Source of the DNA: an uncultured Flavobacterium sp.
GTDB lineage: Bacteria; Bacteroidota; Bacteroidia; Flavobacteriales; Flavobacteriaceae
Direction of reading: 5' to 3'
Length of the DNA: 15,686 nt
NCBI RefSeq assembly: GCF_946482535.1
Contig: NZ_CAMLRU010000048.1
Span: 1-15,686 of the forward strand
Below the pieces are notes generated by a model. It was given only the letters and a program-made list of their open reading frames with translations. It made no database searches and was not told the DNA's origin. Positions within the stretch are counted from its first letter, which is position 1, and the number at the start of each line of letters is the position of its first letter. Of the stretch, positions 2,768 through 13,780 are shown piece after piece. Both the position numbers and the translations under genes were made by a program.

Positions 2768-3089
2768 AAGTGTGCTTTTAATCGGTGTATAAAATCAATG
2801 ATACAAATTTAAAGTTATTATCTAAACGAGGAATATATATTTTTAGTATGCCCTGATTGTTAAAATATTCCAAAAACCTATGATTCATTTTGTTTAACTT
2901 TTATGATGTTAATGAATTTTCTCAACCCATTTAAAACACTTAATAACTCTACAAACTGCTTTTTTCATGACTTTCACAAGACTTAAACGAAACTGTTAAA
3001 ATATTTATAAATTATCATTTTGTTTATCTTTTTACAGATTTTGTTAAACAATGTTTAGTAATTTAGCCGAAACATTAAACAAAATAATT
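2768..3089. other. 322-base divergent intergenic region
   Basis: This region separates the start of the MORN-repeat gene (minus) from the start of the FAS1 lipoprotein gene (plus), so it should hold both promoters. I see no coding sequence, tRNA or strong hairpin. It is very AT-rich. A 12-bp direct repeat TGTTAAAATATT occurs at 2858-2869 and 2994-3005. A weak plus-strand promoter candidate TATCTTTT (one mismatch to TAnnTTTG) lies at 3025-3032, which would give the FAS1 gene a leader of about 50 bases. Confidence 0.6.
2804..2811 (-). promoter_or_regulatory. Predicted -7 element (TAAATTTG) for the MORN-repeat gene
   Basis: The minus strand reads TAAATTTG, an exact TAnnTTTG match, with 36 bases between it and the ATG at 2767. 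No clean TTG is seen at the -33 position. In such AT-rich sequence a chance match is possible. Confidence 0.5.
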
Positions 3090-4034
3090 ATGAAAAATCT
3101 AATCAAAAAAATGACGCTTGTTTGTATTGCCCTCACTATGTTTTCTTGTAGCGATGATGACGATAATTCAAACCAGCCGCAAACAATTGCAGAACTTGCT
3201 TCATCAAATGCTAATTTGAGCATCTTGGTTCAAGCATTAAACAGAGCCGGATTGGTATCAACCTTTGACAGTCCGGGAGATTTTACTGTATTTGCACCTA
3301 CAAATGACAAGTTTGAAGCATTCTTGAGTGCTAATGGCTTTGCCGATATTAATGCGGTGCCACTACCATTATTAACGGAAGTATTGAAAAACCATGTTGT
3401 ATCAGGGTCATTTTACAGTGACGAATTAACAACAGGCTATGTAAAAACTTTAGCAAAAGGATCGGCTTCTACTACTAACACCTTAAGTATGTTTGTGGAA
3501 GTTGGATCGACAGTTAAATTAAATGGAGGTGCAACCAATGGAGGTGCAACCGTTGTCGCCGCTGACATCGAAGCCTCTAACGGTGTAATCCATGTTGTTG
3601 ACAACGTTATCGGTTTACCAACAGTGGTAAATCATGCTATTGCCAATCCTAATTTTACCACTTTGGTTAGTTTAGTTAGCGGTGCAGGTTTAGTACCAAC
3701 CCTAAGTGGAACAGCCGGTTCTCCGTTTACAGTATTTGCTCCTACAAATACAGCTTTTACAACTTTTGAGACACAAAATCCGGGTGTATTGGCCAGTTTA
3801 ACTTCGGCTCAAGTAACTTCAGTGTTGACTTATCATGTAGTTGGTGGTGCCAATGTACTTTCAACAGGAATTCCAACTACTCCGATTACCACATTAGAAT
3901 CAGGAACGTTCACCATATCCGGAACTACAATAACCGATGAAGCTAACAGACAAACCGGTATTATAGCTGTAGATGTACAAGGTTCTAACGGAGTGATTCA
4001 TGTAATTAACAATGTATTGTTACCATCATTATAA
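3090..4034 (+). CDS. Two-domain fasciclin (FAS1) surface lipoprotein
   Basis: I chose the ATG at 3090 rather than the in-frame ATG at 3051 because MKNLIKKMTLVCIALTMFSC forms a complete lipoprotein signal peptide with the lipidated Cys at residue 20. The residues after Cys are SDDDDN, matching the Ser-Asp-rich lipoprotein export signal that directs Bacteroidota lipoproteins to the outer-membrane surface. Two FAS1 domains follow, about residues 32-177 and 178-314. Each has the FTVFAPTN motif, an (N/Y)HVV segment and a C-terminal SNGVIHV(V/I)(D/N)NV signature. FAS1 domains usually mediate adhesion or matrix interactions, so the inferred role is cell-surface adhesion or biofilm matrix binding. 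Domain 1 carries a tandem NGGAT duplication (residues 145-154). It is the only plus-strand gene here, monocistronic, and ends at a strong terminator. Confidence 0.92.
   Translation: MKNLIKKMTLVCIALTMFSCSDDDDNSNQPQTIAELASSNANLSILVQALNRAGLVSTFDSPGDFTVFAPTNDKFEAFLSANGFADINAVPLPLLTEVLKNHVVSGSFYSDELTTGYVKTLAKGSASTTNTLSMFVEVGSTVKLNGGATNGGATVVAADIEASNGVIHVVDNVIGLPTVVNHAIANPNFTTLVSLVSGAGLVPTLSGTAGSPFTVFAPTNTAFTTFETQNPGVLASLTSAQVTSVLTYHVVGGANVLSTGIPTTPITTLESGTFTISGTTITDEANRQTGIIAVDVQGSNGVIHVINNVLLPSL
3522..3551 (+). repeat. Perfect 15-bp tandem duplication inside the FAS1 gene
   Basis: AATGGAGGTGCAACC occurs twice back to back (3522-3536 and 3537-3551), encoding NGGAT twice in a loop of the first FAS1 domain. 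The unit is in frame. The identical copies, including at synonymous positions, suggest a recent slippage event. Confidence 0.9.
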
Positions 4035-8164: not shown

Positions 8165-8559
8165 TTAAAAATAATTTCTCTTTTGATATCGGGATGCAAA
8201 CTGAAATGTACCGGACAAGTTAAGGCTGTTCTTTCCAAAATGGTTTTGGTTTTTTCATCGACTTCAATAGTCATGTCAAAAGTCACGTGAATTTCAGAAA
8301 TTCTTCTCGGGTCGGCCGCCATTACTTTGGTTACTTCTGCTGTTGAACCGGAAAAATCCACACCCATTTCTCGGGCTTTAATCCCCATAACGGTAAACAT
8401 ACAACTGGCTAATCCGTTGGCTACGGTATCCGTTGGAGAAAAGGCTTCTCCTTTTCCGTTGTTGTCTGTTGGCGCATCGGAAATGATTTCGCTTCCGGAT
8501 TGCAAGTGAATAGAAGACGTTCTCAAATCTCCTAAATAAGTAACTTTGGATGTAGGCAT
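8155..8559 (-). CDS. OsmC family peroxiredoxin-like protein
   Basis: The 134-residue protein matches the OsmC/Ohr fold family, thiol-dependent peroxidases that reduce organic hydroperoxides or handle reactive sulfur and electrophiles in the cytoplasm. Both signature cysteines are present: C53 in NGLASCMFTVMGIKA and C115 in ALTCPVHFSL. The PTDTVANGLASC context is more like the YhfA/general OsmC subgroup than Ohr, so hydroperoxide specificity is uncertain. Its ATG overlaps the stop of the upstream LysM gene in a TAATG arrangement, which indicates translational coupling. The DUF3820 gene overlaps or abuts its end. No separate promoter is visible. Confidence 0.93.
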   Translation of the reverse strand: MPTSKVTYLGDLRTSSIHLQSGSEIISDAPTDNNGKGEAFSPTDTVANGLASCMFTVMGIKAREMGVDFSGSTAEVTKVMAADPRRISEIHVTFDMTIEVDEKTKTILERTALTCPVHFSLHPDIKREIIFNWK

Positions 8560-10595
8560 TATGAAGCTTCTTTGATGGTTAAATCGGTATCATAATACAA
8601 AATGTAAATTCCGTTATTAGAATAACCGTAGGTGGTATTTTGGGTATAATCAAACTTGTTTTCGATTTGTTCCGAAGCATCAGACTGAATGGTTTCTTCG
8701 AAAGTTTTGTCTTGTGACAAACGCAATAAAGTATCAAAAGTCACATCAAAACCTCTAATCGCATATTGATTCGGGATAATTTTATTGAACTTCTTGTACT
8801 TGGCATCAAACTGATTGGCTTCCACGGTTTCATTCGGTCTTGACAATGACGGATAAAGCAATTTCAATTTGGTTAATCGTGTTAAGGATATTTCTTCAAA
8901 ATCCAGGGTTTCGTTAGGTTCCATGATGACCAACTGTACTTGATAATCTTTTTGGGCCGCCAACATGGCATTGGTCATAGCCAAAATCATACCGGTACTC
9001 TCGGAAGCTAATAGTACATAATTCATCTTGTCTTTTTGCAAATGCACTCGTAAACTATCGGCTACAAAAGAACCTTTGGCACTCAATCCGACTATTTTAG
9101 TATCGCTTTGCATTTCCTGAAGGTATTGTTTGACACTTCCTTTTTTGGCATCAACCACAGCAATAATATTACCACCTTTGGCTTTCATATATTGAAAAAC
9201 AGAACCGCGCATTTGCTCTAACGAAGGCATAGACTGGTATAAATTACTGTACTTTTTGCCTATTTCTTTGGATAGCGGAGAAATCACCGGGGTTTTGTTG
9301 GGCTCAAGCATTTCGGCTAATTTTTCCACATTAGCTTGATAAAAAGGCCCGATTATCGCATCCATAGCCGACAAATTGTTTTGTTGTGCCAATGTTGCTA
9401 CGTTTGAATTGTTTTTGGTTTCCTGCGAATCTAAGATTTTGATATCCACATTCATTCCCAAAACTTTAGCAGAATCAATCGCCATCAAAGCGCCGGAGTA
9501 AAAATCTAATGTCAAATTAAGAAACTTATCCTTTTTTAAACGCGCTTGGGTTGAATTGACCGTATCGTTTTCAATTTTATTGATATTAAAGGGTAAAAGT
9601 AATGCGAGTTGTTTTCTCGCATTAGTGTTTAAATTCTTCATTAAATTGCCTTGCTCCTTTTTGGGGACATTGACTTTGTCACCCATCGGAACTCTCAAAA
9701 TCATACCGAGTTTGATTCCTTTTTTTAATTCAGGATTCAGTTGGATTAATTCGGTTTCCGTAATGCCAAAATCGGCGGCTATACTTTGAATAGTTTCTTT
9801 TGGTTTTACCACATATTCCTGCAAATATTTTTTCCCTGAACTCGGATTCACATCTTTAGGCATATCTTTTATAGGTTCCGCAGAAACAACCGGTTTTGAA
9901 GTAACTGTGGGTGCATTTCCTGAAACCACTAATTTTAACCCAACCGGAAAATCGGATACTATCCCTGGATTTAATCTTTCCAATTCCGGAATGGTCATGC
10001 CGTATTTTTTGGAAATGCCATACTTGGTTTCCTTAGGTTCTATGACGTGATAAGTAACATTCCCTTTAGGCGTTTCCGCTTTTGGCTCATTTTTCACGAC
10101 CGGTTTTGGCGCTTCTTTTACCACTTCTTTTTGAGGAGCAACAGCAGCTGTAGTTGTTGTTGCATTACCGCTTGAAGTTGGAATTTTTATCGTTTGTCCA
10201 ATTTTTAAACCGTCTTTCAGCAATTCCCCATTGGCTTCTTTTAAAGCCTCAACCGAAACTCCATATTGTCTTGAAAGACTGAATAAAGTTTCTTTGGGTT
10301 GTACCAAATGAGTGGTCGGATTTGAATTGGCTTTAGGCTGTGTTTGCTTAGGCGGAATTACTGTAGGTTCAGCCGAAGAAGGCGGAATCAATAAAACGCT
10401 ATTCAATTGGATTCCGTTTTGAGAATCGGGATTAAGCTTATAAATATCAAAAGGAGTTACTTTGTACTTTTGCGCTATTAACGTAATAGTTTCTCCTTGC
10501 GCCACAGTATGCTTGACGTATTTGTCTTGTTTGGCTGATGTACTAAAGGTAAAACTCAGTACAAAAAGCAGTGAGAAAATAATTCGGTTTTTCAT
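8559..10595 (-). CDS. Exported protein with four LysM domains and a type I periplasmic-binding-protein domain
   Basis: The 678-residue protein has a signal peptide (1-21, STSA|K) and four LysM modules at about residues 27-71, 96-139, 181-225 and 259-303. Each shows the (H/Y)xVxxx(E/K)T...Y...LNP(D/E/G)...G..L.(I/V)P pattern, and Pro/Lys-rich linkers separate them. From about residue 327 (KQLALLLPFNI) to the end it resembles a type I periplasmic-binding fold, as in branched-chain amino-acid receptors (AIIGPFYQANVEKLAEML, TPVISPLS, YVLLASES, YAIRGFDVTFDTLLRL). LysM modules bind N-acetylglucosamine in peptidoglycan. The same fold is used by the penicillin-binding-protein activator LpoA, so a peptidoglycan-associated sensor or activator role is plausible. 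No transporter genes are adjacent. It heads a coupled operon with osmC and the DUF3820 gene. Confidence 0.88.
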   Translation of the reverse strand: MKNRIIFSLLFVLSFTFSTSAKQDKYVKHTVAQGETITLIAQKYKVTPFDIYKLNPDSQNGIQLNSVLLIPPSSAEPTVIPPKQTQPKANSNPTTHLVQPKETLFSLSRQYGVSVEALKEANGELLKDGLKIGQTIKIPTSSGNATTTTAAVAPQKEVVKEAPKPVVKNEPKAETPKGNVTYHVIEPKETKYGISKKYGMTIPELERLNPGIVSDFPVGLKLVVSGNAPTVTSKPVVSAEPIKDMPKDVNPSSGKKYLQEYVVKPKETIQSIAADFGITETELIQLNPELKKGIKLGMILRVPMGDKVNVPKKEQGNLMKNLNTNARKQLALLLPFNINKIENDTVNSTQARLKKDKFLNLTLDFYSGALMAIDSAKVLGMNVDIKILDSQETKNNSNVATLAQQNNLSAMDAIIGPFYQANVEKLAEMLEPNKTPVISPLSKEIGKKYSNLYQSMPSLEQMRGSVFQYMKAKGGNIIAVVDAKKGSVKQYLQEMQSDTKIVGLSAKGSFVADSLRVHLQKDKMNYVLLASESTGMILAMTNAMLAAQKDYQVQLVIMEPNETLDFEEISLTRLTKLKLLYPSLSRPNETVEANQFDAKYKKFNKIIPNQYAIRGFDVTFDTLLRLSQDKTFEETIQSDASEQIENKFDYTQNTTYGYSNNGIYILYYDTDLTIKEAS

Positions 10596-12245: not shown

Positions 12246-12294
12246 AAATAAAAAACGGCAAAAGAAGAAACTTTAAAGGAATTTTCTTTTGCCG
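12246..12294 (-). terminator. Intrinsic terminator of the PNGase F-like gene
   Basis: Arms CGGCAAAAGAA (12256-12266) and TTCTTTTGCCG (12284-12294) form a perfect 11-bp stem. On the minus strand it starts 19 bases after the stop codon and is followed by a T-rich tract (TTTTTTATTTT). It ends about 15 bases before the guaA -7 element. Confidence 0.88.
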
Positions 12295-12313: not shown

Positions 12314-13651
12314 CTACTCTTTTACTATTTTTTTGATCTTTTCTCCGTTGGTCGAATTGACTTTTAAGAAATAAATTCCGTTTAAATAGTTAGAAATATC
12401 AATTGTTGCTTGAGGTGTTTCGGCAATTTGAGTCATCAAAACCCTGCCTTGCATATCACATAACTGAATGGATTGGATTGAAGTATTGGCTGTAATTGTA
12501 ACCCTATTCTGAGTTGGATTTGGATAAAAATCAAAATCTAATGAGGTAAAACTTTCTACCCCAAGCACTGTATTTTGTCCTTGCAAATACAACGAAACCG
12601 GAATATAACCTTGACTATTGATGAAAACCGCATCGGGCACGGCCAATTGAAAAGTATGAGTTCCGGCAGCCAAATTTCCTAAGTTAATCTCACGAATCGG
12701 AATAACCGAACCCGGACACCAATTACTAAACGATTGCCATTGTGCCGGAGTTCTCGGACTTGATCCATAAATTCCGTTTGCTTGGGTGTTGTAAATTCTG
12801 TATGGCTCACAGGTTGGTTCACCGGGTATATACGTCAGGATTGGCGTGTCATCTAATGACACATAATGCCATCTTCTGTTGTATTCCTCTCCGCCGGCAT
12901 TCGCGCCATGATTAGATGTAATCAGATAAAACTTGGCATTATTGATAGCTGATGTCAGTTGGAACTCAATAAGGCGAACTGTATCTCCAATAACATCTGA
13001 TGCGCCTTCCGCATAATTATTTAAATCTTTTTTGAAATTTAAAGGTAAAACAAAGGTATCATTGGGCACTGAAGCCTCTGTATTAGTTATAAAATTCAAC
13101 GTGCCGTAAAACACATCATTCCTTCCCGAACAACCTGCAATTTGAGTGTTGGCTGCATAAGGCACTCCAAACAATTCAAACTCAACCCAAAAATCATAAA
13201 GAGAATTGAGGTAACTGTCTTTTAAAATTTTGGCTGCATTATCAACCGTAAAAGTATAAGGCACTAAATTGGGCGCAACATTTTTATTCATAAAAGGCGT
13301 TATAAATCGCCCTAACTCTATTCTGCTTGTGGTAGATGGATTATAAGAAACGGCACCTTTGGGCACTAATGCTAAGTTGATGTTTCCTATTCGGTCATAG
13401 TTGTCACAAGCCGCTGAAATTGAGATGCTAAGTTGCAAGGTGCTTCCAATTTGCGATAAAACATCGGTGGTTAATTTCTTAGTAAACAAATCGTTTCTCA
13501 ATCGCGTCACATCGGGTGCCGTCGGATGACTTACCAAGGCAGCATAACCATCATAGAACAATACATTATCGTAAATGTTAATGGTAGTTTGTGCTTTTGA
13601 AGTTAGTAGCAACCCAAAAAGGGAAAACAATAAAAAGTAAATTTTTTTCAT
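12314..13651 (-). CDS. PNGase F-like peptide-N-glycosidase with T9SS C-terminal sorting domain
   Basis: PNGase F cleaves N-glycans from the asparagine of glycoproteins, outside the cell. The 445-residue protein has a signal peptide (1-20, SKA|Q), a two-domain body (about 22-360) resembling Elizabethkingia PNGase F, and a type A T9SS sorting domain (about 365-445; FDFYPNPTQNRVTI ... YLNGIYFLKV ... KIKKIVKE). By hand alignment the known acidic active-site residues are kept: D60 as D86 in ACDNYDR, E118 as E159 in WVEFELF, and E206 as E256 in GGEEYNRRWH. The segments IELGRFITPF and WCPGSVIPIR match GRFITPY and WCPGMAVPTR. C281 and C312 match one disulfide; the C204/C208 pair is absent. No glycan utilisation genes are nearby. 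Family assignment is good; activity is inferred. Confidence 0.85.
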   Translation of the reverse strand: MKKIYFLLFSLFGLLLTSKAQTTINIYDNVLFYDGYAALVSHPTAPDVTRLRNDLFTKKLTTDVLSQIGSTLQLSISISAACDNYDRIGNINLALVPKGAVSYNPSTTSRIELGRFITPFMNKNVAPNLVPYTFTVDNAAKILKDSYLNSLYDFWVEFELFGVPYAANTQIAGCSGRNDVFYGTLNFITNTEASVPNDTFVLPLNFKKDLNNYAEGASDVIGDTVRLIEFQLTSAINNAKFYLITSNHGANAGGEEYNRRWHYVSLDDTPILTYIPGEPTCEPYRIYNTQANGIYGSSPRTPAQWQSFSNWCPGSVIPIREINLGNLAAGTHTFQLAVPDAVFINSQGYIPVSLYLQGQNTVLGVESFTSLDFDFYPNPTQNRVTITANTSIQSIQLCDMQGRVLMTQIAETPQATIDISNYLNGIYFLKVNSTNGEKIKKIVKE

Positions 13652-13685: not shown

Positions 13686-13739
13686 AGAAAAAATCAGGTT
13701 CCTTAATGCTTATTAATCTGAATAACAACAAAATCCAAA

Positions 13740-13780
13740 AATAAAAAACACCTGACCAATTTTAAAAACCGGTCAGGTGT
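13740..13780 (-). terminator. Intrinsic terminator of eno
   Basis: Arms ACACCTGACC (13748-13757) and GGTCAGGTGT (13771-13780) form a perfect 10-bp GC-containing stem with a 13-base AT-rich loop. On the minus strand it begins 22 bases after the eno stop and is followed by TTTTTTATTTTTG. Confidence 0.93.

Follow-up and report, generated by a model that had tools for sequence, protein, structure and literature searches.

A putative secreted peptide:N-glycosidase of the PNGase F superfamily with an aromatic residue at the E118 position, from an uncultured Flavobacterium

A 15,686-nucleotide stretch of DNA from an uncultured Flavobacterium sp. (contig NZ_CAMLRU010000048.1; the whole stretch is called the window here) encodes an enzyme of the PNGase F superfamily that ends in a type A C-terminal sorting domain of the type IX secretion system (T9SS), an assignment that is real and well supported. 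We put at about 83% the probability that the gene specifies a secreted peptide:N-glycosidase (PNGase) of this superfamily, in a subfamily that most likely includes PNGaseL of F. akiainvivens. From the observed domains, fold match, residue conservation, and T9SS tail we infer the activity, specificity, export, and role proposed for it. A first-pass annotation had placed the open reading frame (ORF), which lies on the minus strand, at 12314–13651 and described its product as PNGase F-like with a T9SS tail; Pfam, TIGR04183, and fold matches bear this out.

12314..13651, minus strand: ORF of the PNGase F-related protein, 445 aa plus stop codon (ORF list, Pfam and NCBIfam matches, fold match)
13592..13651, minus strand: Sec signal peptide-like N-terminus, residues 1–20 (MKKIYFLLFSLFGLLLTSKA), read from the sequence, with a predicted helix at 2–14
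13136..13585, minus strand: N-glycanase_N domain, residues 23–172 (Pfam 3e-13, 50.3 bits against a cut-off of 22.4)
12584..12976, minus strand: N-glycanase_C domain, residues 226–356 (Pfam 1.5e-26, 93.3 bits against a cut-off of 25)
12317..12526, minus strand: type A T9SS C-terminal sorting domain, residues 376–445 (TIGR04183 1.3e-15, 57.1 bits against a cut-off of 23)

The profile search proposed in that annotation thus matches both N-glycanase domains, each above its Pfam gathering score and in N-then-C order. Residues ~16–370 superpose on PNGF-II and PNGase F and share their two-jelly-roll fold; the side-by-side, eight-stranded arrangement is taken from this superposition and not from a count of individual strands. 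Identity to PNGase F (1pnf, 1pgs, 1png, 3pms) is 16–17% in the structural alignment. The tail is also matched by Por_Secre_tail (Pfam 1.3e-15) and by the folds of the FspA and NucA C-terminal domains. The protein would be exported through Sec, with signal peptide cleavage at a putative site, and then through the T9SS by recognition of the sorting domain; among related genomes, SprA of the T9SS machinery is present in all four that were searched.

Residue conservation was read from an alignment of 141 rows (137 distinct) comprising the window protein, the proteins of 80 loci, four further genome copies, and 56 listed proteins (every fourth of 224 from two protein searches). As judged from these sequences, two, not three, of the classic active-site acids are kept in the window protein.

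13394..13396, minus strand: D86 in CDNYDR, equivalent of PNGase F D60 (141/141 rows, hhalign)
12884..12886, minus strand: E256, equivalent of PNGase F E206 (141/141 rows, hhalign)
13169..13171, minus strand: F161, at the position of PNGase F E118 and of the type II Gly (structural alignment)
13175..13177, minus strand: E159, the residue earlier equated with E118, not conserved (Glu in 98/141)
13181..13183, minus strand: E157, invariant family Glu, Gly in type II, not at the E118 position (141/141, alignments)
13544..13546, minus strand: Y36 in loop 1 (FYDGY), proposed counterpart of PNGaseL Y38 (141/141)

All five motifs on which the first-pass annotation relied are present (ACDNYDR 81–87, IELGRFITPF 111–120, WVEFELF 155–161, GGEEYNRRWH 253–262, and WCPGSVIPIR 311–320), and its equation of D86 with D60 and of E256 with E206 holds. 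When aligned by hhalign with L097, a type I sequence that is clearly orthologous to PNGase F (E 1.4e-145 to 1pnf), these pairs have posteriors of 0.99 and 0.91, respectively; against the type II acids the values are 1.00 for D86 and 0.998 for E256. The same residue occupies every row at D86, E256, E255, R87, Y85, H248, Y36, E157, C82, C281, and C312.

The third proposed pair, E159 with E118, did not stand. The superposition that the annotation had called for recovers the fold, but the fragment that pairs with residue 118 of 1pgs, 1png, 3pms, and 1pnf ends at F161, not at E159. The F161 column is Phe in 137 of the 141 rows, Tyr in three, and Leu in one; in the E159 column 98 rows have Glu, 18 have Gln, and the rest have other residues. 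In type II enzymes the gating residue is the second Gly of the strand, the one in IGNY (G380, of the core-fucose pocket), and in the Bacteroides enzymes it is the Asp of IDTW; MAFFT and two of three hhalign settings pair G380 with F161 (posterior 0.29), matching the structural register. This register is opposed by the remaining type II setting, where F161 is shifted five residues on, after a gap, and by the alignments with L097, whose E118 (in YTETW, counted from D60) falls on V163 in all three settings (posterior 0.29). We consider it very improbable that the protein is a type I-like PNGase F with three acids, E159 acting as E118: the WVEFELF strand does offer two Glu, at 157 and 159, and most rows have Glu at the latter, but residue 118 of the four PNGase F entries pairs with F161, no hhalign setting yields the E159–E118 pairing (though posteriors at E118 are low), and 43 of 141 rows are non-Glu at this column. 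On strand register (hhalign, structural alignment) and on variability we rejected E159 as the third acid. We also dropped E157 as the E118 equivalent, a by-eye match to the first type II Gly, as the gate is the second Gly and F161 lies there. What usefully changes is the view of the gate: the E118 position appears to hold an aromatic residue, and E159 is not a conserved active-site acid.

With no acid at the E118 position, the protein could be a catalytically silent glycan-binding relative. We regard this as scarcely credible, given that the two essential acids and the substrate-lining residues are invariant across the 141 rows and that, according to PMC9522356, type II enzymes lack E118 yet are active.

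The window protein differs from each of the known PNGase types with which it was compared. Type I PNGase F has E118 and the C204–C208 pair, where the window protein has F161 and lacks the pair. Type II enzymes, represented by PNGF-II (4r4z, 4r4x) and the B. massiliensis PNGase (7zgn), have an N-terminal bowl-like domain that is absent here, the catalytic domain beginning at residue 23, and they have Gly in the fucose pocket, whereas the window protein has Phe (F161 in place of G380) and additionally a T9SS tail. Bacteroides group 1 PNGases (3ks7, 4qhb) have Asp at the E118 position instead of Phe. A Trp of PNGase F corresponds to H248 of the window protein, and His is likewise present in the other PNGases that PMC12381499 describes. 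Zebrafish Ngly2 (9lwg) differs in being an animal enzyme of acid pH with extra domains (PMC12753239).

The cysteines differ in part from those of type I.

13406..13408, minus strand: C82, aligned with PNGase F C56, proposed disulfide with C174 (141/141)
13130..13132, minus strand: C174, proposed partner of C82 (140/141; both Cys in 140/141)
12809..12811, minus strand: C281, proposed disulfide with C312 (both Cys in 141/141; aligned to type I and II Cys)
12716..12718, minus strand: C312 in NWCPG (141/141)

The loss of the C204/C208 disulfide, noted in the first pass, is seen in the alignment, where G254 and N258 occupy these sites; the pair is likewise absent from the aligned type II and group 1-like sequences. 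The suggestion of C82/C174 as an alternative pair fared less simply. Joint conservation in 140 of 141 rows suits a disulfide, which is plausible, but conservation does not prove the bond itself. Other disulfides of PNGase F are C51–C56 and C231–C252; C281 and C312 correspond to the latter, and C51 has no counterpart in the window protein.

Among characterised enzymes the closest is PNGaseL, a T9SS-signal-bearing enzyme whose measured specificity is broad, with removal of mammalian, plant, and invertebrate N-glycans; its second-GlcNAc (N-acetylglucosamine) aromatic is Y38 of loop 1, unlike the loop used by most other PNGases, and the loop that supplies the aromatic in those enzymes is enlarged in PNGaseL (PMC12381499, 2025). 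The window protein has a T9SS tail, a loop-1 tyrosine, and a long loop after the E118 strand, which would be the equivalents of these PNGaseL features. The likeness further includes PNGase F-superfamily membership and aromatic-D-positive and His/Glu motifs, seen here as YDR and His/Glu. The genus is probably also shared, the closest neighbour genes coming from Flavobacterium. The loop-1 tyrosine is at position 38 in L053 and others. Y36, V163 at the PNGase F W120 site (in the register of the structural alignment), and the long loop at 162–178 of the window family are good, though indirect, evidence for placing PNGaseL in this family. Were that correct, the default expectation would be a broad specificity that includes core alpha-1,3-fucose.

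In the proposed mechanism, the two jelly-roll domains would form, outside the cell, a binding cleft for the chitobiose core of the N-glycan, its geometry being inferred from the fold match. Y85, R87, and H248 would line the first GlcNAc, and the aromatic platform, which in PNGase F is the role of another loop, would probably come from Y36 of loop 1. With F161 replacing the E118 gate, specificity would be set differently from types I and II. The likely use of the enzyme would be in feeding on, or loosening, eukaryotic glycoproteins. As a speculative extension, the strand that typically marks the family, W-[VIML]-E-[FL]-x-[LV]-F-G-[VI]-P-Y, might represent a third gate design beside the catalytic Asp, in which F161 replaces the Glu/Asp of type I and group 1 and the Gly of type II, and the invariant E157 lends support further down the strand; the outcome could be that core alpha-1,3-fucose is tolerated with no pocket of its own, or that untried glycan cores are preferred.

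It is also conceivable, though unlikely, that the protein acts mainly on non-standard N-linked glycans (algal, fungal, protist, or bacterial), F161 shaping a different first-GlcNAc pocket. The specificity-determining position is Phe where types I and II have Glu, Asp, or Gly, and a type II-like open frame of 558–595 aa occurs in six of the ten genomes holding the window family, which suggests a division of labour. However, the features match those of PNGaseL, for which PMC12381499 shows activity on the standard substrates from mammals, plants, and insects. For the same reason, and because the family is large and the majority of the six characterised PNGase genes in that paper are orphans, as is the window gene, the first-pass proposal that a divergent enzyme outside any glycan locus could have a new specificity is weakened; such a specificity is possible.

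Several observations weigh against the reading as a secreted PNGase related to PNGaseL, which we nonetheless prefer. The acid at the E118 position of type I is missing. By sequence the tie to PNGase F itself is weak: it is not among the window protein's nine matches at E up to 10, and the family profile reaches 1pgs at no better than E 0.002, its strongest stretch lying in the C-terminal domain. The comparison with PNGaseL draws on its published description, and none of the 224 distinct proteins listed (240 rows, most of them without an organism name) is shown as F. akiainvivens. The window yielded no recognisable glycan-use genes in its ORF translations or in a Pfam scan of eight proteins, and no glycoside hydrolase family or SusD was found among ten neighbouring ORFs at six loci (L020, L023, L043, L048, L065, L070), a small, hand-chosen sample of the 80. 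Of these ten ORFs, one at L023 encodes a TonB receptor and one at L070 an M6 peptidase that has a short match of the chitobiase/hexosaminidase C-terminal type.

PNGases are standard tools for glycan release, and there is a use for those whose substrates extend to plant and insect glycans with core alpha-1,3-fucose. In this large natural family the position that decides fucose tolerance holds a different residue, so the way in which specificity arises can be tested directly; the window protein itself is otherwise ordinary, and its subfamily is large and probably partly characterised.

The family has at least 2494 relatives, that being the number at E <= 0.001 among 7998 candidates scored in the first protein search; several of the 120 matches listed come from Flavobacterium under the name 'peptide-N-glycosidase F-related protein'. 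Within the genus-level group of genome G001, which contains at least one Myroides genome (G010), the catalytic part is matched at 41–84% identity in 41 of 299 genomes, and PF09113 occurs in 188 of 398. One family member (G179:C1:853669-854981) is split over two open frames (matches 9–277 and 280–444) and is probably a broken copy. The T9SS tail is missing in 6/141 aligned proteins, three of which (L048, L055, and L069) begin with lipoprotein-like signals; in these a lipid anchor may replace T9SS export, and the anchor seems exchangeable.

In a tree of 35 sequences the window protein adjoins F. terrisoli (100/98), and a long branch (100/100) parts the window family from type II and group 1. The family forms one group against all others, type I included, in 27% of bootstrap trees, type I being a single row on a very long branch. 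Four other PNGases (L147–L150; 396 aa) resemble Bacteroides group 1 in sequence (L147: E 8.5e-115 to 3ks7), but their fucose gate is the Gly of type II (IGNY), and at this length they have no room for the N-terminal bowl domain; they may combine a group 1 frame with the specificity of type II. L098, a multidomain protein with an open frame of 1208 aa, a PNGase-like region, and a T9SS-like tail, seems acid-free in its D60 and E206 columns, possibly as a non-catalytic relative or through misalignment.

The gene lies beside housekeeping genes, as the first-pass annotation had it: eno, upstream, was named by Pfam match, and carA, further upstream, and guaA, downstream, were recognised by eye from their translations and not by family search.

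13748..13780, minus strand: terminator-like hairpin of eno, upstream of the PNGase gene (hairpin scan, 15 pairs, then a T run)
12256..12294, minus strand: inverted repeat with a T run, probable terminator of the PNGase gene, before guaA (11-nt perfect arms; T run read from the sequence, the repeat being absent from the hairpin scan listing)

The hairpin parts the PNGase gene from eno, and the repeat parts it from guaA; the gene is probably transcribed alone. The promoter consensus TANNTTTG has 22 copies in the window, which is the chance level, and its copy at 13736–13743 is no evidence of a promoter. Upstream carA and eno on the same strand recur in nine of the 80 loci (L001–L009), four of which have guaA within ~2 kb downstream; the remaining loci mostly have other neighbours. 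Family members also occur in records titled Bifidobacterium breve, Rhizobium, and Burkholderiales (L008, L027, and L042), of which at least L008, with its Flavobacterium-type carA and eno, looks wrongly titled. Elsewhere in the window, 8559–10595 (minus strand) encodes a periplasmic binding protein-like domain fused to four LysM domains, and 3051–4034 (plus strand) a signal-like N-terminus followed by two fasciclin domains; the remaining plus-strand ORFs listed are short and overlap genes on the opposite strand.
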